Assembly: GCA_938049385.1 (NCBI GenBank) | Contig: CALIBQ010000043.1 | Coordinates: 1-64,000, forward strand | Source: an uncultured Anaerolineae bacterium | GTDB taxonomy: Bacteria; Chloroflexota; Anaerolineae; JACIWP01 | Length of the DNA: 64,000 bases | Reading direction: 5' to 3' | Part shown: positions 13,751-50,262 of the stretch, piece after piece | Position numbering within the stretch: the first letter of the stretch is position 1 | Layout: each line of letters begins with the position of its first letter | The notes under the pieces: generated by a model | Told to the model about the DNA's origin: nothing | Seen by the model: the letters and a program-made list of their open reading frames with translations, nothing else | The model's database searches: none | Made by a program: the position numbers and the translations under genes

Positions 13751-15286
13751 TTAATGGCGGAAATGACGCCGGCCCGTGAACACCAATGCCATGCCCAGCT
13801 CGTCGGCGGCGGAAATCACCTCGTCATCGCGCACGGAGCCGCCCGGTTCAATGGCGGCGGTGGCGCCGGCCTCTGCGGCCAGCCGCAGGCCGTCGGCGAA
13901 GGGGAAGAAGGCATCGGAGGCTACCACACTGCCGCGGGCGCGCTCGCCGGCCTTGATGCTGGCGATGCGCACTGCATCCACCCGGCTCATCTGGCCGGCG
14001 CCGATGCCCACCGTGGCGCGCTCCTTGGCGAAGACGATGCTGTTGGATTTGACGTGCTTGGCGACCTTCCAGGCGAAGCGCAGGTCATCCCATTCCGCCG
14101 GCGTCGGTTCGCGCCGGCTGACCACGCGCCACTCCTCGCCCTCCCAGCCCTCATCGCGAGTCTGCACCAGCAGGCCGCCGCGCACCGCCCGCATCTCGAA
14201 GCGGTCCTCCACTGGCTGGGAGGGGTCCAGGGCGATCAGCCGGCAGTTGGGGCGTGCTCTCAGCAGTTCCAGGGCGGCCGGCGTAAAGGAGGGCGCAATC
14301 ACCGCTTCCACGAACAAATCGCCCATGGCATGCACGGTTTCCGCGTCCATAGGGCGGTTGACGGCGATGATGCCGCCGAAGGCCGAGACCGGGTCGCAGG
14401 CCAGCGCGGCGCGGAACGCCTCAGAGAGGGTCTTACCCACCGCCAGGCCGCAGGGGTTGGTGTGCTTGATGATGGCCGCGGCCGGCTCGTCAAAATCGCT
14501 CGCCGCGCGCCAGGCGGCGTCCAGGTCCAGGATGTTATTGTACGACAGCTCCTTGCCCTGAAGCTGTTGTCCGCCCAGCGGAAGGCTGTTCCCGCCGAGG
14601 CCGTACAGCGCGGCCGCCTGGTGTGGGTTCTCTCCATAGCGCAGGAGGCTGATGAGCCTGGCCGGCAGGGGGAACCGCTCGGGGAAAAGCTCCGGCGTGC
14701 CGAAGCGCTGGGCCAGGGTGCTGGCGATGGCGGCGTCGTAGCCGGCGGTATGGCGGAACGCCTTCAGTGCCAGGTGCTGACGCCGCTCCAGCGGGACTTC
14801 GCCGTACTGCTCCAGATCCGCCAGCACTGCCTCATAATCATCAGGGTCGCACACCACCGTCACGGACTCGTAGTTCTTGGCGCCGGCGCGCAGTAAGGCC
14901 ACCCCACCGATGTCAATCTGCTCCACCAGCTCTTCAAGGGGCACGCCGGCGCGCGCCGCTGTCGCCTCAAAGGGATACAGGTTCACGACGAGCACCTCAA
15001 TGGGCGCGATGCCCAGCGCCTGAAGCTCCGCCATGTGGCCCGGGTGCTGGCGGCGGGCCAGCAGGCCGCCGTGAATATGGGGATGCAGGGTTTTGACACG
15101 CCCGTCCAGGATTTCTGGAAAGCCCGTCACGGATTCGACGCTGATAACAGGCAGGCCGGCCTCCCGCAGTATCTGTGCCGTGCCCCCGGTGGATACCAGC
15201 TCGAAGCCGTGCGCCGCCAGCCCCTGGGCGAACGCCGGCAGGCCGCGCTTGTCCGACACGCTCAACAAGGCCCTTCGGGTGACCAT
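13751..15286 (-). CDS. purH: Bifunctional AICAR transformylase/IMP cyclohydrolase PurH
   Basis: 511 residues, usual length. It carries out the last two steps of IMP synthesis. The N-terminal MGS-fold cyclohydrolase has LVSTGGTAQ and GRVKTLHP; the C-terminal transformylase has LRYGENPHQ and IIKHTNPCG with the Lys-His catalytic pair. The start at 15286 gives MVTRRALLSVSDKRG with AGGAGGAAG upstream; an in-frame ATG 28 codons earlier adds non-family sequence. It follows hisIE by 38 bases at the end of the his operon, which makes sense because HisH/HisF release AICAR, its substrate. Confidence 0.97.
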   Translation of the reverse strand: MVTRRALLSVSDKRGLPAFAQGLAAHGFELVSTGGTAQILREAGLPVISVESVTGFPEILDGRVKTLHPHIHGGLLARRQHPGHMAELQALGIAPIEVLVVNLYPFEATAARAGVPLEELVEQIDIGGVALLRAGAKNYESVTVVCDPDDYEAVLADLEQYGEVPLERRQHLALKAFRHTAGYDAAIASTLAQRFGTPELFPERFPLPARLISLLRYGENPHQAAALYGLGGNSLPLGGQQLQGKELSYNNILDLDAAWRAASDFDEPAAAIIKHTNPCGLAVGKTLSEAFRAALACDPVSAFGGIIAVNRPMDAETVHAMGDLFVEAVIAPSFTPAALELLRARPNCRLIALDPSQPVEDRFEMRAVRGGLLVQTRDEGWEGEEWRVVSRREPTPAEWDDLRFAWKVAKHVKSNSIVFAKERATVGIGAGQMSRVDAVRIASIKAGERARGSVVASDAFFPFADGLRLAAEAGATAAIEPGGSVRDDEVISAADELGMALVFTGRRHFRH

Positions 15287-15324
15287 ACCGCTTCCTCCTC
15301 CACAATGCTGTCCGATTCGGTGGT

Positions 15325-15993
15325 TCAGGGATGATACCGCTCGCGCAGGGCCGCGTCTATCTCTTCCCATCCAATATCATATGCCAGCAGGGCGACATGG
15401 AGATGGTACAGCAGGTCAGCGGCCTCTGCGATAAGACGCTCACGGGGTTCGTTCTGGGCGGCGATGATGACCTCGACGGCCTCCTCGCCGACTTTCTGCA
15501 AGATGCGTGCGGTGCCGGCCTGGAACAGCCGGCTGGTGTAGGATGTCTCCCGAGGGTGGGCTTTGCGGCCGGCCAGCAAATCGCTCAGCCGCTGGCGGAA
15601 AGGCTTGGCTTCGGGGTCCTGCTCCCCGTCCAGCCGGCGGTAGAAGCAGGTGCGGCGGCCGGTATGACAGGCCGGGCCGGCGGGATCCACCAGCAAAAGA
15701 AGCGTGTCCCCATCGCAGTCTATGTGTACAGCGCGCACCCGCTGGACATTGCCGGAGCTTTCGCCCTTATGCCACAGCGCCTGCCGACTGCGGCTCCAGA
15801 AATGGGCCTCGCCAGTCTCCAGCGTGCGCTCCAGCGCCTCGCGGTTCATATAGGCCAGCATGAGCACCTGGCCGGTGAGGTCGTCCTGGACGATGGCCGG
15901 CACCAACCCCCGCTCGTCCCAGCGGATCTGCTCCATCAGGGAGGATGATGCGGTCTCCGGCACATCAGAGGATGAGGGGGTAGAAGGGGCCAT
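15325..15993 (-). CDS. hisI: Phosphoribosyl-AMP cyclohydrolase / phosphoribosyl-ATP pyrophosphatase HisIE
   Basis: 222 residues, a fusion doing steps 2 and 3 of histidine synthesis. HisI part, about 20-125: [26 protein letters not shown], and zinc-binding CHTGRRTCF. HisE part, about 130-222: [14 protein letters not shown] and [11 protein letters not shown]. The start at 15993 has GGAAAGG upstream and leaves a 7-base gap after hisF; a second ATG at 15936 (MEQIRW) would trim a Ser/Pro-rich leader of 19 residues and is a possible alternative. Confidence 0.96.
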
Positions 15994-16000
15994 ATTTGCA

Positions 16001-16783
16001 TCACCTTTCCGGGAGCGGTTCGGTCAGCCGGACCGGCACGCCGCGCTCCGCCAGATAGCGCTTCACCTGGCCAATGCTCAACGTGCGGTAGTGGAACAGG
16101 GAGGCGGCCAGCGCGGCGTCCGCCCCGCCGGCGGTGAGCACCTCGTGGAAATGCTCCAGCCGGCCAGCGCCCCCAGAAGCGATGACCGGGATGGACACCG
16201 CCTCAGCCACGGCGCGGGTCAGCGGGATATCATACCCATCCTGGGTCCCGTCGGTGTCCATGCTGGTCAGCAGTATCTCGCCGGCGCCCAAACGTTCCGC
16301 CTGCTGTGCCCAGGCTACGGCTTCCAGCTCGGTGCGCACCCGGCCGCCGTCAATATACACATCCCAGCCAGAGCCATCCGGCCGGCGCTTCCCGTCAATC
16401 GCCACAACAATGCACTGCGATCCGAAGCGCCGGGCGCCTTCCGTGATGACGGCGGGATTGCGCACGGCCGCGCTGTTGATGGAGATTTTATCGGCGCCGG
16501 CCATCAGGATGGCGCGCATATCCTCCACGGTGCGGATGCCGCCCCCGACCGTCAGGGGGATGAAGACCACATCGGCCACTCGGCGCACCACATCCACCAT
16601 GATATCGCGGCGCTCCGGCGAGGCGGTGATGTCGAGAAAGATCAGCTCGTCGGCCCCTTCCTGGTCGTAGACGACGGCCTGTTCCACCGGGTCGCCGGCA
16701 TCCCGTAACTGCAGGAAATTGACGCCCTTCACCACGCGCCCGTCGCGCACATCCAGGCAGGGGATGATGCGTTTGGCCAGCAT
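16001..16783 (-). CDS. hisF: Imidazole glycerol phosphate synthase subunit HisF
   Basis: 260 residues. This is the cyclase half of IGP synthase; it combines PRFAR with ammonia from HisH, giving IGP and AICAR. The (beta/alpha)8 barrel starts [21 protein letters not shown] with the first catalytic Asp in CLDV; the second acidic site is in VVAIDGKRR. It ends [10 protein letters not shown]. It is one base from hisA and 7 bases from hisIE. Confidence 0.97.
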
Positions 16784-16784
16784 G

Positions 16785-17537
16785 TCAGTCCTCCAGGCCT
16801 AGGCCCACACGGATAGCCTGGGTCAGGTCAATGGCGCCGGTGTACAGCGCGCTCCCGATGATGGCGCCCTCAATCCCATCCCCCTCGTGTTCGCGCAGGG
16901 CACGCAGGTCGTCCAGGGAGGAGATGCCGCCGGAGGCGATGACCTTGAGGCCGGTCTGGCGGGCCAATTCGGCGGTGGCTTCCACGTTGACGCCGGCCAT
17001 AGTCCCGTCGCGCGTCACATCGGTGTACAGACAGCGGATGACGCCCCGCTCCGCCATGCGTCGGCCCAGCTCCACCGGGCTGAAAGCCGAAGTCTTTTGC
17101 CAGCCGTGGGTTACCACCTTGCCCTCGCGGGCGTCCAGGCTGACCACGATGCGCTCCGCGCCGAACTCCCGCACAGCGCGCTCCACCAGCGCCGGCCGGC
17201 GCACCGCCGATGTGCCCAGCACCAGGCGGTCCACCCCCTTCTCGAACAGCAGTTCCATGTCTTCCAGCGAGCGGATGCCCCCGCCGAACTGCACCCACAC
17301 ATCCACGGCCTGCAGTATCTCCTCCAGGGCGCGCAGGTTCGGGGCATGGGCGGACCCCAGCCGGCTGGTCAGGGCGCCGTCCAGGTTCACTACATGGAGC
17401 CAGAAGGCGCCGGCCATCACCCAGCGGCGCGCCATCTCCGCCGGCTCGTCGCAGAACACCGTCTCCTTGCCCGGGTCCCCCTGGAAGAGGCGCACACAGC
17501 GGCCCTTCCGCAGGTCAATGGCGGGATATACGATCAT
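16785..17537 (-). CDS. hisA: ProFAR isomerase HisA
   Basis: 250 residues. It performs the Amadori rearrangement of ProFAR to PRFAR. The barrel has Asp in [14 protein letters not shown] (residue 8) and the C-terminal Asp in [10 protein letters not shown]. The start overlaps the hisH end by 23 bases. It contains the HisA-specific [10 protein letters not shown] motif rather than that of HisF. Confidence 0.97.
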
Positions 17538-18144
17538 CTTGCACCACCCACTCCACGAAATTGCGCAGGATGCGCAGTCCCACTGCCTGGCTCTTTTCCG
17601 GATGAAACTGCACCCCGAGCAGGTTCTCCCGCCCGACGATGGAAGCGTAAGAGATGCCGTAATCCGTGGTGGCGAGGATGTCGTCAGGGTCCGCCGGCTC
17701 CACGTAGTAGGAATGGACGAAATAGGCGTAGGCGCCGTCGGGGACGCCGGCCTGAAGCGGATTAGGCCGGCGCCAGAAAAGCTGGTTCCAGCCGATCTGC
17801 GGCACCTTTATACCGCCGGCGAAGCGCCGCACCCGTCCTCGCAGGAGGCCCAAGCCCCGGTGCAGGCCCATCTCTTCGCTTTCCTCGAACAGCAACTGCA
17901 TGCCCAGGCAGATGCCCAGCAGGGGCACGCCGGCCTCGATCGCCTGGCACAGTGGCTCCACAAATCCCAAGCTTTGCAGGTTGCGCATGCCGTCTCCGAA
18001 GGCGCCCACGCCCGGCAGGACGATGGCGCGGGCACCCTCCAGCTCCGCCGGCGAGGAAATCAGCCGCACCGGCGCGCCCACCTGCTCAAAGGCTTTCTGC
18101 ACACTGCGCAGGTTGCCGATGCCGTAATCCACGATGACGATCAT
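17515..18144 (-). CDS. hisH: Imidazole glycerol phosphate synthase subunit HisH
   Basis: 209 residues, class I glutamine amidotransferase feeding ammonia to HisF. The nucleophile Cys is in [13 protein letters not shown] (about 76-88) and the His/Glu pair in [10 protein letters not shown] near the end. GYGIGNLRS opens the protein. It overlaps hisB by 4 bases and hisA by 23. Confidence 0.97.
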
Positions 18145-18734
18145 AGCACCCCCTTGGTGGAGGGGACGCCGGCGCGCCGCGGGTCGGTTTCGACGGCCTG
18201 GCGCAGGGCGCGTCCCAGCGCCTTGAACAGCGCCTCCGCCCGGTGATGGTCATTGCTCCCGTACAGCACCCGGGCATGCAGGTTCATGCGGGCATGGAAG
18301 GCCAGTGTCTCCAGGAAGTGGGGGATCATGTCCGTACCCAACGCGCCGATGGCCGGCCGCGCGAACGCGGCGTCCACCACCGCATACGGCCGGCCGCTCA
18401 GGTCCACCGCGACGAAGGCCAGCGCCTCATCCATGGGAACATGGGCCTCACCCATGCGGCGGATGCCCTCCCGCCGGCCCAGCGCCTGGTCCAGCGCCTG
18501 CCCCAATACGATGGCGATATCTTCCACCGTGTGATGCTCGTCTATCTCCAGGTCTCCCTGGGCCTGCACCCGCAGGTCCAGCAGGCCGTGGACGGCTACG
18601 TGGGAGAGGAGATGGTCAAGAAATGGGATCCCAGAATGGATGTCGACCTCGCCGGCGCCGTCCAGGTTGAGCCATACTTCCACGTGGGTCTCGCGGGTCT
18701 GACGCTGGACATGGGCGGTACGCGCGCTAATCAT
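18141..18734 (-). CDS. hisB: Imidazoleglycerol-phosphate dehydratase HisB
   Basis: 197 residues, monofunctional (no phosphatase domain). The manganese-binding repeats are intact: [11 protein letters not shown] (about 67-77) and [11 protein letters not shown] near the C-terminus, plus [17 protein letters not shown] precedes the start. The histidinol-phosphatase step must come from another gene not seen here. Confidence 0.97.
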
Positions 18735-18746
18735 TCTCCGCCTCCA

Positions 18747-19826
18747 TTATAACCTTCGCAAGGCATCGAGCAAAATATCGGTGTGCTCCGGCCGGCCAAC
18801 GCTGAAGCGCACACAGTCGGACACGCCGGGCTTGTCGAAATGACGGATGAGGATGCCCTGCCGGCGCAGGGCCAGCTTGACCTCGACCGCCGGCCGGCCC
18901 AGCACCCGGCACAAGATGAAGTTGGCATGGCTGGGGAAGGGCTGGAGCCAAGGGATGGCGCGCAGGGCGGCCAGCATGCGCTCTCGCTCCTGAACCATGA
19001 TGCGCACAATGCGCAGTAATTCGTCAGCATGTTCCAGCGAAGCGATGGCGGCGGCCTGCGCGGCGGCACTAATGTTGTAGGGCTGTTTGATTTTCCACAG
19101 GTGCGGCATCAGCGCCTCAGGGAACACGCCGTAGCCAACGCGCAGGCCGGCCAGGCCAGCCCACTTGCTGAAGGTGCGCAGGACGATGAGGTTCTCGTGC
19201 GCCGGCACCATGTTGATGAAGCTTTCGCCGCGGAACTCCGCGTAGGCCTCGTCCAGCACCACCAGCACGGGGAGGGCCAGGAGCCGGCGCAGGGTTTCGG
19301 CGTCGAAGACGCTCCCGTCCGGATTGTTGGGGCAGGCCAGGAAGAGCAGTTTGGGATGATGTTCCGAGACAGCGCGCTCGATGCCGGCCAGGTCCAGGGA
19401 GAAGTCGGGCCGGCGCGGCACGGAAACCACCCGGGCACCGTGCAGGGCGGCGTCGAAGGCATACATGCCGAAGGTCGGCGGACAGTTCAGGATGCAGTCG
19501 CCCGGCCGGAGCACCAGCCGCATGATGAGGTCAATCAGCTCGTCAGAGCCGGCGCCGGCCAATATGATCTCGCGCGGCAGGCCCAGGAAGGCGGAGAGGG
19601 CATCGCGCAGGCGGTTCTGCATAGGGTCGGGGTATATGTGCAGGGCATCGCATTGAGCCAGGGCCTGGCGCACCGCCGGCAGGGGGCCGTAAGGGTTCTC
19701 GTTGGCATCCAGCTTGACCAGCTTCTCCATCGGGATGCCCAGCTCCTGGCTGAGCACGTCCAGCGGCACCACCGGCTGGTACTCTTCCATGTCGAGGATG
19801 TCCGGTCGGATAAGGGAGAGCGGCAT
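18747..19826 (-). CDS. hisC: Histidinol-phosphate aminotransferase HisC
   Basis: 359 residues, fold-type I aminotransferase. KLDANENPYGPLP opens the protein, the PLP Lys is in RTFSKWAGLAGLRVGYG (about 213), and the C-terminal Arg region is present. The start at 19826 has GGAAGG upstream and lies 1 base after the hisD stop; an earlier in-frame ATG falls inside hisD. It ends 12 bases before hisB. Confidence 0.95.
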   Translation of the reverse strand: MPLSLIRPDILDMEEYQPVVPLDVLSQELGIPMEKLVKLDANENPYGPLPAVRQALAQCDALHIYPDPMQNRLRDALSAFLGLPREIILAGAGSDELIDLIMRLVLRPGDCILNCPPTFGMYAFDAALHGARVVSVPRRPDFSLDLAGIERAVSEHHPKLLFLACPNNPDGSVFDAETLRRLLALPVLVVLDEAYAEFRGESFINMVPAHENLIVLRTFSKWAGLAGLRVGYGVFPEALMPHLWKIKQPYNISAAAQAAAIASLEHADELLRIVRIMVQERERMLAALRAIPWLQPFPSHANFILCRVLGRPAVEVKLALRRQGILIRHFDKPGVSDCVRFSVGRPEHTDILLDALRRL

Positions 19827-19827
19827 A

Positions 19828-21192
19828 TCAGCCTTCCGGTTCTGAGGATGAAGGGCTTGGCCGGCGCACATAGACCGCGTTGGCGTGGGCGGTCAGGCCC
19901 TCCGCCTCGGCGATGCGCGCCGCGGCCGGCCCCAATATATCCAGTTCCGAGCGCCCCAGCGCCACCAGGCTGGTAACCTTGACGAAGTCCATGATGTTGA
20001 GCGGCGAGGTGAAGCGCGCCGTGCCGCCGGTAGGCATGACATGCGAGGGGCCGGCCACGTAATCCCCCAGCACCTCGAAGGAGTTTTCCCCCACGAAGAT
20101 GCCGCCGGCATTGCGGATTTTCCCCACCCAAGCCCATGGCTCTCTCACCAGCAGGCAGAGATGCTCCGGCGCGTACTCGTTGGCCAGCTCGACAGCCTCA
20201 TCCAGGTCGCGCACCAGCACGATGCCGCTCCGGCTGGACAGGGAGCCGGCGATGGCCTCCTGGCGGGAAAGGCGTGCCGCCTGCCGGCGCACCTCTTCCT
20301 GCACGGCGCGCGCCAGCCGCTCCGAAGGAGTGAGCAGTACGGCGGATGCCAGCACGTCATGCTCCGCCTGGGCGAGCAGGTCAGCGGCGGCCACCGCCGG
20401 CACGGCGCCCTCGTCCGCGATGACCAGCGTCTCCGTCGGCCCATATATCCCGTCAATGCCCACCTGTCCGAAGACCATGCGCTTGGCCAGCGCCACGAAC
20501 AGGTTGCCCGGGCCGACGATTTTGTCCACACGGGGGATGGTCTCTGTGCCGTATGCCAGCGCGGCGATAGCCTGTGCCCCGCCGGCGCGGAAGACCCGGT
20601 CCACGCCGGCAATGGCGGCCGCCGCCAGGATCACCGGTGCGATCTCCCCCGTGCGGCGGTCGGGCGGAGAGACCACCACGATCTCCTGCACGCCGGCGGC
20701 GCGCGCCGGCACCGCCGCCATCAGCAGGGAGGAGGGCAGAGGAGCCGTGCCGGCCGGCACATATACCCCCACCCGTTGGAGCGGCCGCACGATCTGCCCC
20801 AGGATGCCGCCGGCGTCGAATGCTGTCCAGGAGCCCACATGTTGCCGCTGGTGAAAATCGGCGATGCGCTCCGCCGCCAGCTCCAGCGCCTGGCGCAGGG
20901 AAGGCTCCAGCGCGTCGCGCGCGGACAGCCAGGCTGCGCGCGGCACCTCCAGCGTGGGAAGTGCTGTGCCGTCAATGCGGCGCGTCCATTCTATCAGCGC
21001 GGCGTCCCCGAGCTCCCGCACGTCCCGTAGGATGATCTGTACCGCCTCTACCGGCGAAACGGGCCGGCCGAACAGGCGCTCCAGGGAAGCGACCAGAGCC
21101 GGCGGTACCTCCATCTCCTCCATATCCGTCCGCCGCAAAATGGTGCGACGCGCTTCTTCCACATCGGTGTATATCCGCATCACGTAATCCAT
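19828..21192 (-). CDS. hisD: Histidinol dehydrogenase HisD
   Basis: About 454 residues. It oxidises histidinol to histidine with NAD in two steps. Zinc ligands and catalytic residues are visible: [17 protein letters not shown] (Glu-His catalytic pair), [14 protein letters not shown]. The start is uncertain between ATG 21192 (MDYVMRIY) and ATG 21180 (MRIYTD); I chose 21192 because of GGGGAAG upstream. The open frame runs further upstream but overlaps hisG. Confidence 0.95.
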
Positions 21193-21215
21193 GATCCATT
21201 CTTCCCCAAACAGTG

Positions 21216-22238
21216 TCAGCCCCTGCCCAATGCTCTGTGCAAACGCTTGACGGCCTCTGATTCTGCGCCGAAGATATATTCCACGGGCGAGACGATGACC
21301 TCGGTACTGCCCAGCCGGCGGAACTCCTGGATGGCCTGATGGAGCTGTTCCTCCCACACCACGATGCTGACCGTTACCGCCACGCAGTCGCCGTTGGCGT
21401 CGTAGATGGGGAGGAATGATGGCCCGCGCAGGCCGGCAATGGCCGGCCTGCCGAGCATCTGCCGTGCCAGGGCGGCCGGCTCATGACAAGGGATGTTGGC
21501 CAAGATGGAGCGGTAGCGCCGGCCGCGGTGGTGCGCCTCGATGAACTCCAGCATCTGCTCCGCCACCGCCAGGGCCGGCCCGCCCCGCGCCAGCTTGCTC
21601 CGGTTGCCGATGAAGCAGGCCTCCGAGTGCAGGATGACGCCGTCGTCCAACTGCTTCAGGCGGTTCTCGCGCAGGGTCGTGCCGGTGGCGGTGATGTCGG
21701 CGATGAGGTCGGCATAGCCGATGGCCGGCGCGGCCTCGATGGCTCCCGATGCCTCCACCAATGTAAAATGATGGATGTCCTTGCGGTAGAGGAATTCCCG
21801 CACCAGGTTGGGGTACTTGGTGGCGATGCGCAGGGGCCGGCCCTGTTCCCACCATTCCAGCGCCAGGTCCGCTAAATCCGCCGCGCAGTTGACGTCCAGC
21901 CATCCCTCCGGCACCGCCAGCACCAAGTCGCACCCGCCGTATCCCAGGTTCTCATACAGCACCAGGATCTCATCCCCGTCCGAGCGGCCCTCCGCGACGA
22001 TGTCAAAGCCGGTGATGCCCAGGCAAACGTCGCCGTCGCGCACCTTGGCGAAGATATCCGCCGGCCGCTGGAAGAGCACCTCCACCTGGGGGAAGGCCGG
22101 CATGCGCGCCAGATACTGGCGCGGGTTGGTCTTGGAGACGCGCATGCCGCACCGCTCCAGGAAGGCCAGCGTCGGCTCTTCCAACTGCCCCTTGCTGGGC
22201 AGGGCCAGCCGCACCATCTCTCCCGTTCCTCTAACCAT
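21216..22238 (-). CDS. hisG: ATP phosphoribosyltransferase HisG, long form
   Basis: 340 residues, first and feedback-controlled enzyme of histidine synthesis. The catalytic half has [23 protein letters not shown] and the PRPP loop [16 protein letters not shown]. The last 75 or so residues ([12 protein letters not shown]... [16 protein letters not shown]) form the ACT-like regulatory domain of the long form HisG(L), which normally works without HisZ. Start 22238 has AAGGAG 7 bases upstream and overlaps the preceding stop by 8 bases; ATG 22217 is an alternative. The neighbour upstream is a HisZ-like protein, an unexpected pairing. Confidence 0.95.
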
Positions 22239-23796
22239 GGGGGGTCTCCTTCTCCCCGCCAGCCCGGCCCTGGCCCAGCAGTGCGTCCACCAGCTCCTGG
22301 GCATGCGAGAAGGACACGGACTGCCTCGGCGAGCTGAGAAGCATGAGATGATACTGCGGCGCTGTGGGTGTGCCGTCCACCACGATAAGATGAGCTAGGC
22401 CCTTTTTCATGGCGTAATCCATGTTGGCGCGCTGGGAGCGGTTCCGCAGGTCCAGCTCCACGCACAAGCCCTCCTGGCGCAGTCGGCGCATCAGCGCCAG
22501 GCTCTGGCCGTGGAGCGCCGGCGATGCCGCACACACCAGCGCCTGTGGCGCCTCGCTCTTCCACTGCTCTTTGGTGCAGGCGGCCAGACGCTGGATGCCG
22601 TAGGCCAGGCCGCACGCCGGCGTCCTCTGCCGGCCTCCCAGCGCGGCAATGAGGTCATCGTAGCGGCCGCCGCCGCAAAGTTGTTGCTCATCGCCCTGCG
22701 GCAGGGTGGGATATATCTCGAAAATCATGCCGGTGTAGTAATACAGCCCACGCCCCATGCCCAGGTTGACGATGATGCGCTCCTCGGGCAGGCCGGCGGC
22801 CTGCAACAGCTCGACGATGTCGGTCAGGTTGCGGAGCGGTTCCTGGCTGAGGTGGTGCCCTTCCAGCAGGGCGGCGGCCGCCGGCAGGGCTTTCTGGGGC
22901 GGGCCGGCAGCGCGGTGGAGCTGTTCCGCCAGGGCCAGCGCCTGGCGGATAAGCGGCACCTGGTCAGGGCGTGAAAGCTGATTCAGCACGCCGTCCACCA
23001 CCTCATCCACGGTGCGGCTTCCCAGGGCGGATTCGGCGTTCAGCCGGCCCAGCAGGGCGCTCAGCACGGCGCGCGCATCCTCCCGTCGGGTTCCGCTCAC
23101 CAACTGCTGGTGCGCGGCACTGCGTTCCGCCGGCGGGTACAGCTCCTGCAGGCGCTCCTCCACATAAGGCAGGCCCCGGTCGGGCCGGCCCAGGTTTTCC
23201 AGGTTGCTCAGCACGAAATTGCGCGCCCGCCGGTCCAGCTTCAGCCGCTTGAGCAGGTCCAGCATGGCGCCGATATGCCCCAGCACGATGCAGTAACTCG
23301 CGATCCCGACCGCCTCCAGCCCCTCACAGGCAGTCAGGATCAGCTCTGCGTCTGCCAGGGGGCTTTCTCCCCCGATGATTTCCAACCCGAACTGGGTGAA
23401 CTGGCGCCGGCGCCCTCGCTGGGGCTTCTCATAACGGAACACCGGGCCGTGATAGTACAAACGCTGGGGAAGCGGCTCGTCCTGCAGGCTCTCCACATAC
23501 AGCCGGCCGACCGAGGCGGTGAATTCTGGCCGGGCACAGATACTGCGGTTGTAGAAGGTGAAGGAATAGAGCTTGGGAGCCAGCACTTCCCCTGATTTGC
23601 GCAGGAACAGCTCAGTGTATTCGAACACCGGCACATCCACGGGACGGAACCCGTGGGATTCCGCGACCTGACTCAGCCGGCCGATGATGCCGCGCTGGCA
23701 TACCGCGGCAGAGGGGAGGACATCGTCCATGCCGCGCAGACGCTCGATGCGCCGGCTCCGGCCCAGCGGTGTTTCGGGCCGGCGTTCCTGTTCCAT
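22231..23796 (-). CDS. HisRS-family protein, HisZ-like paralogue with anticodon-binding domain
   Basis: 521 residues, first gene of the his operon. The class II core is clear: RGMDDVLP near the start, FEYTELFLRKSGE, motif 2 FRYEKPQRGRRRQF, GGGRYDDLIAALGG. A C-terminal anticodon-binding-like domain follows (SLALMRRLRQEGL...ANMDYAMKKG). Several histidine-site positions differ from true synthetases: RPEFT where HisRS has RPEGT, RGLYYYTG where HisRS has RGLDYYT, and the segment VLGHIGAMLDLL is HisZ-like. The catalytic Arg is kept. It could be a divergent histidyl-tRNA synthetase or an ATP-phosphoribosyltransferase regulatory subunit. ATG 23796 follows GGAGGAA; ATG 23829 is the alternative. Confidence 0.85.
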   Translation of the reverse strand: MEQERRPETPLGRSRRIERLRGMDDVLPSAAVCQRGIIGRLSQVAESHGFRPVDVPVFEYTELFLRKSGEVLAPKLYSFTFYNRSICARPEFTASVGRLYVESLQDEPLPQRLYYHGPVFRYEKPQRGRRRQFTQFGLEIIGGESPLADAELILTACEGLEAVGIASYCIVLGHIGAMLDLLKRLKLDRRARNFVLSNLENLGRPDRGLPYVEERLQELYPPAERSAAHQQLVSGTRREDARAVLSALLGRLNAESALGSRTVDEVVDGVLNQLSRPDQVPLIRQALALAEQLHRAAGPPQKALPAAAALLEGHHLSQEPLRNLTDIVELLQAAGLPEERIIVNLGMGRGLYYYTGMIFEIYPTLPQGDEQQLCGGGRYDDLIAALGGRQRTPACGLAYGIQRLAACTKEQWKSEAPQALVCAASPALHGQSLALMRRLRQEGLCVELDLRNRSQRANMDYAMKKGLAHLIVVDGTPTAPQYHLMLLSSPRQSVSFSHAQELVDALLGQGRAGGEKETPHG

Positions 23797-23861
23797 GCTC
23801 TGTTCTTCCTCCAATTCCTGCACCATCATTCCCTCGCTGTGTGCACCGGGGAGATATCCCC

Positions 23862-23893
23862 ATCCCCCTTCCCCGCGTGCGGGGAAGGGGGAT
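23862..23893. repeat. Long C/G hairpin, copy 2
   Basis: A perfect 15-bp inverted repeat (23862-23876 with 23879-23893) separated by 2 bases, core CCCCCTTCCCCGC. Related to the hairpin at 8205-8228. It lies in the 5' leader of the his operon, about 65 bases before the first start codon. Confidence 0.7.
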
Positions 23894-32785: not shown

Positions 32786-33062
32786 ATGTGGTCGTGCACC
32801 CCTCTTCGAGCCATATCCCCTGACTTGCCGCAGGCACCCAGCTCAGACCAGGCTCCCCTGCGGCACCCGGAAGTGACCGCTTACCGTTGCTTCCTCTCGG
32901 ACCTGGCGGGGTTCACGGGCTTCCGCCGCGCAGGACCCAATCCTCAACGCCAGATGCCAGGGCAGTCTCAGAAGCATCTGGCCCTCGGAGGGGAATTCGA
33001 CCCCGCTGTAGCGGATTGCGGGTACAGGGCACCGCTAGCTCCCCGTCTAGCACGACCACATC
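32786..33062 (-). ncRNA. ffs: Signal recognition particle RNA, large bacterial type
   Basis: About 275 nt on the minus strand. The Alu-domain start, GTGCTAGACGGGGAGCTAGCGGTGCCCTGTACCCGC (positions 33054-33019, first and last bases only approximate), matches Bacillus scRNA closely. The S-domain hallmark is CCAGGTCCGAGAGGAAGCA (about 32910-32892), the symmetric-loop/GNRA-type tip that binds Ffh. The two ends pair perfectly over 12 bp (33062-33051 with 32797-32786), and a run of five T follows. A strong promoter precedes it. The exact 5' base is inferred from the promoter. Confidence 0.93.
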
Positions 33063-49098: not shown

Positions 49099-50262
49099 CT
49101 AAAAGTCAATGGGACGTCCTTCGTAGGCATAGGTGAAGAGACGCGCAAACTCACCGCGATCGGGGACACGCGGGCTGGTCACCGTCTGCGAATCGCTCTC
49201 GGCCCGGTCCACCAGCGCCTCCAATTGGGCATCAAAATCGGCGCGGGCGATGCTCAGCGCGGCGATGGACTGCGGCTGGTCAATATCATGCAGTAACTGC
49301 CGGACCCGCGCGGAGAGTGCCCAGGCGGCGGTTTCCTCGTCGTCCGCCGGCAGTCCCAGGAAGCGGGCGATATCGGCGTAGCGCGCCGCGCCCGAAGGTG
49401 CCGAGTACTCGATGGTGTAGGGCAGGAAAAGCCCCACGGCGCGCCCATGCGGGATGTGGAATAGGGCGCCCAGGGAATGACCCAGGCTGTGGGCCAGGGC
49501 AAAGAGGGAGTTACTGCACGCCAGGCCGGCGATGGTGGCGGCATTGTGCATATGCTCCCGCGCTTCCATGTCCTTCCCATTGTGGTAGGCACGCGGGAGA
49601 TAGGTGAAGATAAGCTTGATGGCTTGCAGTGCCAGCCCGTCGCTGAAATCGTTATGCCAGGTGTTGATATAGGCCTCGAAAGCATGGGTGAGGGCGTCCA
49701 TGCCGGTATCGGCGGTCAGGCGCGCCGGCATGCCCTGGACAAAGTACGGGTCTACGATGGCCAGGTCCGCCACACACTCGCGCGTGCCCAGCCCCAACTT
49801 GCGCTGTTCGGCCGTATCGGTCAGCACGATGGCCCAGGTGACTTCCGAGCCTGTGCCGCTGGTGGTCGGGATGGTGATGAGCCGCGCCTTCTGCCGCAGA
49901 TGATAGGTGTCGAAGGGGTTGATGGAATCCGGTGCCACATCCGGGCGCTCATAGAGGATCCACATGGCCTTGGCGGCATCCAGACATGACCCGCCCCCCA
50001 GCCCGACGATCCAGTCGGGTTCAAAGGCCCGCATGGCCTCGGCGCCGCGCAGGGCGGTCCGCAGGGATGGCTCGGGTTCCACCTCGCTGAAGACGGCGAC
50101 CTCCAGGCCGGCGCTTTGCAGGCGCCGGCGCACCTCGTCCACAAACCCCAACTGCACCATAGTGGGGTCGGTGACGATGAAGGCGCGCCGGCCTTCCACC
50201 GTCTCCAGCACACAGCGTGCGTCCTCCCCATAGACGATATGGGGGCTGTCGAAATACCACAT
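49099..50262 (-). CDS. Iron-containing alcohol dehydrogenase
   Basis: 387 residues, group III dehydrogenase. NAD-binding GGGSCLDAAKAMWIL (about 93-107); iron ligands Asp/His in DTGMDALTHAFEAY (about 194-207), and His residues in AHSLGHSLGALFHIPHG (about 262-278). It reduces aldehydes or oxidises primary alcohols; specificity unknown. AGGAGG precedes the ATG. It lies between the SCP2 gene (51-base gap) and the AOR gene (17-base gap). Confidence 0.94.
   Translation of the reverse strand: MWYFDSPHIVYGEDARCVLETVEGRRAFIVTDPTMVQLGFVDEVRRRLQSAGLEVAVFSEVEPEPSLRTALRGAEAMRAFEPDWIVGLGGGSCLDAAKAMWILYERPDVAPDSINPFDTYHLRQKARLITIPTTSGTGSEVTWAIVLTDTAEQRKLGLGTRECVADLAIVDPYFVQGMPARLTADTGMDALTHAFEAYINTWHNDFSDGLALQAIKLIFTYLPRAYHNGKDMEAREHMHNAATIAGLACSNSLFALAHSLGHSLGALFHIPHGRAVGLFLPYTIEYSAPSGAARYADIARFLGLPADDEETAAWALSARVRQLLHDIDQPQSIAALSIARADFDAQLEALVDRAESDSQTVTSPRVPDRGEFARLFTYAYEGRPIDF

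Follow-up and report, generated by a model that had tools for sequence, protein, structure and literature searches.

A HisZ-like HisRS paralogue encoded next to a plant-type long-form HisG: a probable regulatory subunit of ATP phosphoribosyltransferase in Chloroflexota

The DNA analyzed here, referred to as the window, is a stretch of 64,000 nucleotides from an uncultured Anaerolineae bacterium. Its minus strand carries a complete histidine operon in the order HisRS-family gene, hisG, hisD, hisC, hisB, hisH, hisA, hisF, hisIE, followed by purH. The first gene (22231–23796) encodes a HisRS-family, HisZ-like protein, as judged from its open reading frame, Pfam and NCBIfam matches, trees, ribosome-binding site and an AlphaFold2 model. 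The open frame extends from 23829 to 22231 (532 aa), and a GGAGGA ribosome-binding site makes the start at 23796 (521 aa) more likely than the start at 23829. The second gene, hisG (21216–22238), encodes a protein of 340 aa that was assigned to the long, plant-type form by Pfam, its nearest solved relative and an AlphaFold2 model. The hisG start overlaps the stop of the upstream gene by 8 nt (ATGGTTAG) and is preceded by an AAGGAG ribosome-binding site. An earlier note on this DNA had already placed a HisRS-family gene at the head of the operon, adjoining a long-form hisG, and both genes are indeed found there.

Further along the minus strand lie hisD (19828–21192; Pfam Histidinol_dh, 519 bits; start inferred inside the open frame 19828–21357) and a hisC-like aminotransferase gene (18747–19826; Pfam Aminotran_1_2 and operon position; start inferred). 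The remaining his genes (15325–18734) were identified by inspection of their translations: hisB (18734–18141), hisH (18144–17515), hisA (17537–16785), hisF (16783–16001) and hisIE (15993–15325). A purH-like gene, identified from its translation alone, sits close behind hisIE at 13751–15370. The leader of the operon contains a perfect 15 bp hairpin with a 2-nt spacer (23862–23893, minus strand) and folds better than shuffled sequences (z −3.55). This hairpin is a possible regulatory element of the operon; Rfam returned no match to a T-box or any other known leader RNA in the leader. Elsewhere, the minus strand of the window encodes a large bacterial signal recognition particle RNA (32792–33055, 206 bits) and tRNA-Cys (GCA; 50068–50151), the sole tRNA found in the window.

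The HisRS-family protein matches the Pfam domain tRNA-synt_His with 181.8 bits. It falls just under the cut-offs of both relevant NCBIfam models, scoring 285.1 bits on the hisS model (TIGR00442, cut-off 286.75) and 265.3 bits on the hisZ model (TIGR00443, cut-off 271.65); among its orthologues, the best match to TIGR00443 reaches an E-value of 5.1e-123. A Foldseek search ranks HisRS structures above HisZ. The anticodon-binding-like C-terminus mentioned in the earlier note (residues 429–525, encoded at 22255–22545) scores 18.4 bits on HGTP_anticodon, which is below the cut-off of 21, and is modeled by AlphaFold2 as an alpha/beta domain with a mean pLDDT of 89.3, mostly above 90.

To read the active site, we take E83, T85, E131, R259 and Y264 of E. 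coli HisRS to be histidine-binding residues, and R113, R121, Q127 and the motif-3 arginine to belong to the ATP site. The segment RPEFT (23518–23532) contains the equivalents of E83 and T85 and is unchanged in 53 of 53 orthologues; residue alignment places the equivalents of R259 and Y264 in RGLYYYTG (22729–22752). Both segments had been thought to mark an altered histidine site. This idea does not hold: genuine HisRSs from the same class carry LRPEFTA, which rules out RPEFT as the sign of a broken site, and the residue before YYTG varies among HisRSs too. Two other observations of the same note are borne out. Motif 2 (FRYEKPQRGRRRQF; 23398–23439) is intact in this protein, with its ATP-site arginines gone in many orthologues, and the LGHIG segment (23269–23283) is shared with classical HisZ. 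Since the window protein retains all scored residues, including motif 2, Q127 and the motif-3 arginine, this particular member may still activate histidine.

HisG from the window matches Pfam HisG (PF01634) with 131.9 bits and HisG_C (PF08029) with 23.8 bits, slightly above the cut-off of 23.5. Its best solved relative is the enzyme from Medicago truncatula (6czl, 240 bits). The AlphaFold2 model (mean pLDDT 94.5) contains a complete ACT fold and superimposes on the Medicago structures 6czl and 6czm over the full length with a TM-score of about 0.86. From the HisG_C match, the modeled fold and this full-length similarity we conclude that the long form is real. The ACT domain (21279–21518, minus strand), defined by Pfam, alignment and model, is not missing from this HisG, and the paradox of a long HisG next to a HisZ-like protein therefore stands.

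We then considered whether the HisRS-family protein is simply the histidyl-tRNA synthetase of this organism. The source genome (98% complete, 85 contigs) contains one other HisRS-family gene. This gene lies elsewhere in the genome (G000:C36) and codes for a canonical HisS of 452 aa with 385.6 bits on the hisS model and a clear anticodon domain. Two HisS types that differ deeply, RYDLT and RPEFT, occur in the class of the window (L001:1126-2484 and L074, L079–L083), and the HisS of the window's own genome is of the RYDLT type. In all trees, the window protein falls outside catalytic HisRS. Its clade unites eight of eight sequences at 100/98 in a class-level tree of 48 rows, 35 of 35 in a tree of 96 rows (99 SH-aLRT) and 12 of 12 in a reduced tree of 43 rows (100/99). 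Classical HisZ, including the solved protein from B. halodurans, forms a separate clade in the 96-row tree. By these comparisons the window family is a well-supported clade of its own, neither catalytic HisRS nor classical HisZ. The deeper order differs between trees: the 48-row tree joins the clade with classical HisZ against HisS (95/90), and the 96-row and 43-row trees put it nearer to bacterial HisRS than to HisZ. An AU test on 43 sequences did not reject a union with classical HisZ (p-AU 0.075), and we therefore do not claim a recruitment separate from classical HisZ as proven.

The distribution of the protein was mapped in 120 genomes of the window's class and in a wider set of 301 Chloroflexota genomes. 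The class genomes display three states: a short HisG beside classical HisZ, a long plant-type HisG without partner, or a long HisG accompanied by the new protein (in families f1, f22, f44 and f19). In the wider set, 85 of the 301 genomes (about a quarter) encode the new protein, a call that rests on a score gap between 191 and 137 bits. Thermosporothrix hazakensis and a Thermomicrobiales MAG are among the carriers. Linkage was counted in the 57 of these 85 genomes for which PF08029 mapped the ACT domain of HisG among the matches listed. In 48 of the 57, hisG lies at most 2.5 kb downstream of the new gene and on its strand; in the rest, the ACT-bearing HisG is encoded on another contig (seven genomes), far away (one) or on the opposite strand (one). 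Overlap of the two genes is frequent among carriers. In a lineage that we presume to be Chloroflexus-like, a creatininase-family gene stands between the HisRS-like gene and hisG (L287:1652-2455, L288:1781-2458).

Marine filamentous cyanobacteria (Coleofasciculus, Okeania, Trichodesmium, Hydrocoleum) also carry the protein. Nine marine cyanobacterial genomes have no HisG other than a plant-type one encoded close to the new protein, and a separate HisS was seen in most of the nine, though not in all. One further record, JAHHHY010000001.1, is titled Pleurocapsa minor, a cyanobacterium, but shares its HisZ-like and HisG proteins, as well as the length of the contig, with a genome from the window's class (G049); it looks mislabeled.

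Residue conservation across the family separates the two halves of the old active site. All 53 orthologues have the histidine-pocket equivalents of E83, T85, E131 and Y264, and 52 of them have that of R259. The adenylation residues, all kept in the window protein, are not conserved family-wide: of the 53 proteins, 37 retain R113, 29 R121, 25 Q127 and 34 the motif-3 arginine. R113, R121 and R259 are each found in 44 of 44 HisRS controls. A further order (n = 19) shows R121 in a single protein and the motif-3 arginine in none; in the same 19 proteins E83 is kept in 18, and T85, Q127, E131 and Y264 in all. This pattern of a preserved pocket and eroded adenylation residues suits a histidine sensor for which adenylation is no longer needed. 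The anticodon-like domain was detected in 35 of the 53 orthologues with E-values down to 1.6e-20; entire branches that retain the linkage to HisG have a shortened version or none that was detected.

The positions that contact histidine are known from M. tuberculosis HisG, and matching residues in the C. glutamicum enzyme have been tested by mutation (PMC3896937). Aligned to the M. tuberculosis protein, the window HisG retains two of the contact positions (N248 and L270) and differs at two others, with S274 in place of Thr238 and E313 in place of Ala273. Most HisGs with a HisRS-like partner likewise preserve several contacts: the D218 position is N in 28 of 32, L234 is L in 28 of 32 and T238 is T in 29 of 32. 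The A273 position, by contrast, is mostly D, Q, E, H, S or N in partnered HisGs versus glycine, in a strict GGSG loop, in 12 of 12 partner-less plant-type HisGs including that from Medicago. The identity to Medicago in the ACT domain relative to the catalytic domain is 1.14 for partner-less and 0.80 for partnered HisGs (Mann–Whitney p about 1e-6, ignoring relatedness), the partner-less set being one clade with Medicago itself inside. The HisGs of Thermosporothrix and its relatives (f61) no longer have the GL.GPT segment.

Complete loss of the domain was found in the order of genome G298, where 7 of 23 HisGs examined (234–273 aa) have no ACT, each of them beside the new protein. Frameshifts as the cause were ruled out where checked: tblastn detected no ACT remnant, and hisD follows close behind in some cases. 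On the tree the ACT pattern takes six changes, at least four of which are forced by strongly supported branches, so that ACT was lost about six times and no fewer than four; of the genus mates G463 and G325, one has ACT and the other does not. The partner-less HisGs of the order (G426, G430 and G462, from MAGs that are 75–89% complete) all keep ACT and are without the GGSG loop. The association between ACT loss and partner presence is by itself not significant (Fisher p 0.34, approximate table), because partners are common in this order. In a tree of the HisG catalytic domain, whose root depends on long outgroup branches, the partner-less clade that includes Medicago nests within the partnered HisGs (99/97). 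Its nearest neighbor is the window HisG, with modest support (89/83; 97/83 in a second tree). This topology suggests that the lineage leading to the plant enzyme lost the HisRS-like partner. Judged from these sequences, partner and ACT look interchangeable, because ACT has diverged or been lost beside the partner, while partner-less HisGs, that of Medicago included, retain ACT.

We propose, with a probability of roughly 0.8, that the window protein serves ATP phosphoribosyltransferase (ATP-PRT) as a HisZ-like regulatory subunit: a HisRS paralogue probably retired from tRNA charging and paired with a plant-type long HisG. This reading draws on the separate clade, the separate HisS, the coupling to hisG, the near-invariant pocket and the loss of adenylation residues in many members. 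At the level of sequence, the family is a separate orthologous group with a canonical HisS alongside, a gene coupled to hisG, a retained pocket and adenylation residues lost in several branches. Classical HisZ provides the precedent for a regulatory role (PMC10795190, PMC9437257). By analogy, the HisRS-like protein would bind its HisG, accommodate free histidine in what was once the aminoacylation pocket, and pass on activation and feedback inhibition to the catalytic subunit. In the partnered HisG, ACT probably still serves structure or assembly, or else regulation in a secondary and weaker way, since its histidine site has diverged and the whole domain can be lost. For the window itself, the arrangement is most likely an extra histidine switch beside a weakened ACT. 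Several observations count against a HisZ-like subunit: the window protein has kept its adenylation residues, the anticodon-like domain present in 35 of 53 orthologues would be superfluous for a pure ATP-PRT subunit, a number of genomes (family f66 and others) do not have the new gene linked to hisG, and the co-occurrence of ACT loss with a partner is by itself not significant.

The earlier note had offered three readings, a mixed complex of long HisG and HisZ with double control, a tRNA-sensing regulator and a divergent synthetase, and the mixed system is the one best supported here. Its double-control part, in which the HisRS-like subunit and ACT would each bind histidine and jointly control one HisG, is a sub-case of the HisZ-like subunit that we hold to be a serious possibility, at somewhat less than even odds. 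The intact ACT fold in the HisG model and the contacts preserved in most partnered HisGs speak for such a dual system. The charged, polar or bulky residue at the A273 position of most partnered HisGs (Glu in the window, together with the Thr238 to Ser change), the stronger divergence of ACT relative to the catalytic domain, and the partnered HisGs that lack the site or the entire domain speak against it. A diverged ACT that is missing from seven partnered HisGs fits a transfer of control to the HisRS-like subunit at least as well.

An uncharged tRNA-His bound through the anticodon-like domain might instead tune histidine synthesis to tRNA charging. The frequency of this domain among orthologues agrees with such a sensor, as do the motif-2 loop residues close to the tRNA acceptor site, which the window protein retains. 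However, the window protein gives a weak match to the domain, and in many orthologues, including whole branches still linked to HisG, it is shortened or was not detected. We therefore do not regard tRNA sensing as the core role of the family and consider it unlikely. It is very improbable that the protein is a divergent yet working histidyl-tRNA synthetase that entered the his operon by chance. The higher score on the hisS than on the hisZ model, the Foldseek ranking and the complete set of catalytic residues would be expected of a synthetase; the canonical hisS elsewhere in the genome, the position of the clade outside HisRS and the loss of motif-2 and motif-3 arginines among orthologues would not, and for the family as a whole this reading is poorly supported.

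Taking the protein as a HisZ-like subunit, we can sketch a tentative history, to which we give rather less than an even chance. Plant-type ATP-PRT may have begun as a two-subunit enzyme with a HisRS-derived sensor recruited apart from classical HisZ. The branch leading to the plant enzyme would have lost the partner and come to depend on ACT; in other branches the partner would have persisted and ACT disappeared several times, thereby reinventing the architecture of the short HisG–HisZ enzyme. The natural series of HisGs with partner and ACT, with partner and eroded ACT, with partner and no ACT, and with ACT and no partner offers ready pairs for studying how one allosteric sensor is swapped for another in a catalytic enzyme. 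The system may also bear on the origin of histidine regulation in plants.

According to an assumption stated in the literature, HisZ should be absent where HisG is long, and HisG should not be long where HisZ is present (PMC8305728). This assumed exclusion is contradicted by 85 of the 301 Chloroflexota genomes sampled and by several marine cyanobacteria. Our search, which covered a library of open-access papers, found no published description of a HisRS-like partner paired with a long HisG. Like classical HisZ (TIGR00443), the new protein is a HisRS paralogue encoded beside hisG, with a kept histidine pocket and an LGHIG-like segment, and is not a duplicate HisS. In contrast to classical HisZ, it forms its own clade, is typically longer, often retains the anticodon-like domain and normally has a long, plant-type HisG as partner; the window HisG has ACT, and only seven of the orthologous systems examined are without it. 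With HisRS (TIGR00442) it shares the fold and, in many members, motif 2 and the C-terminal domain, but it is not the HisS of its genome, has lost catalytic arginines in several branches and is encoded with hisG. The long HisG of Medicago truncatula (6czl/6czm) is 36–37% identical to the window HisG, with the TM-score of about 0.86 including ACT; the plant enzyme belongs to the partner-less clade, whose GGSG loop is missing from the partnered HisG of the window. The short HisG–HisZ ATP-PRTs from L. lactis (1z7m), P. arcticus (5m8h) and A. baumannii (8oy0) follow the same two-gene logic of a catalytic and a HisRS-like subunit. The new system differs from them in that its HisG has an ACT domain, save in the seven genomes that resemble an independent approach to the short form.
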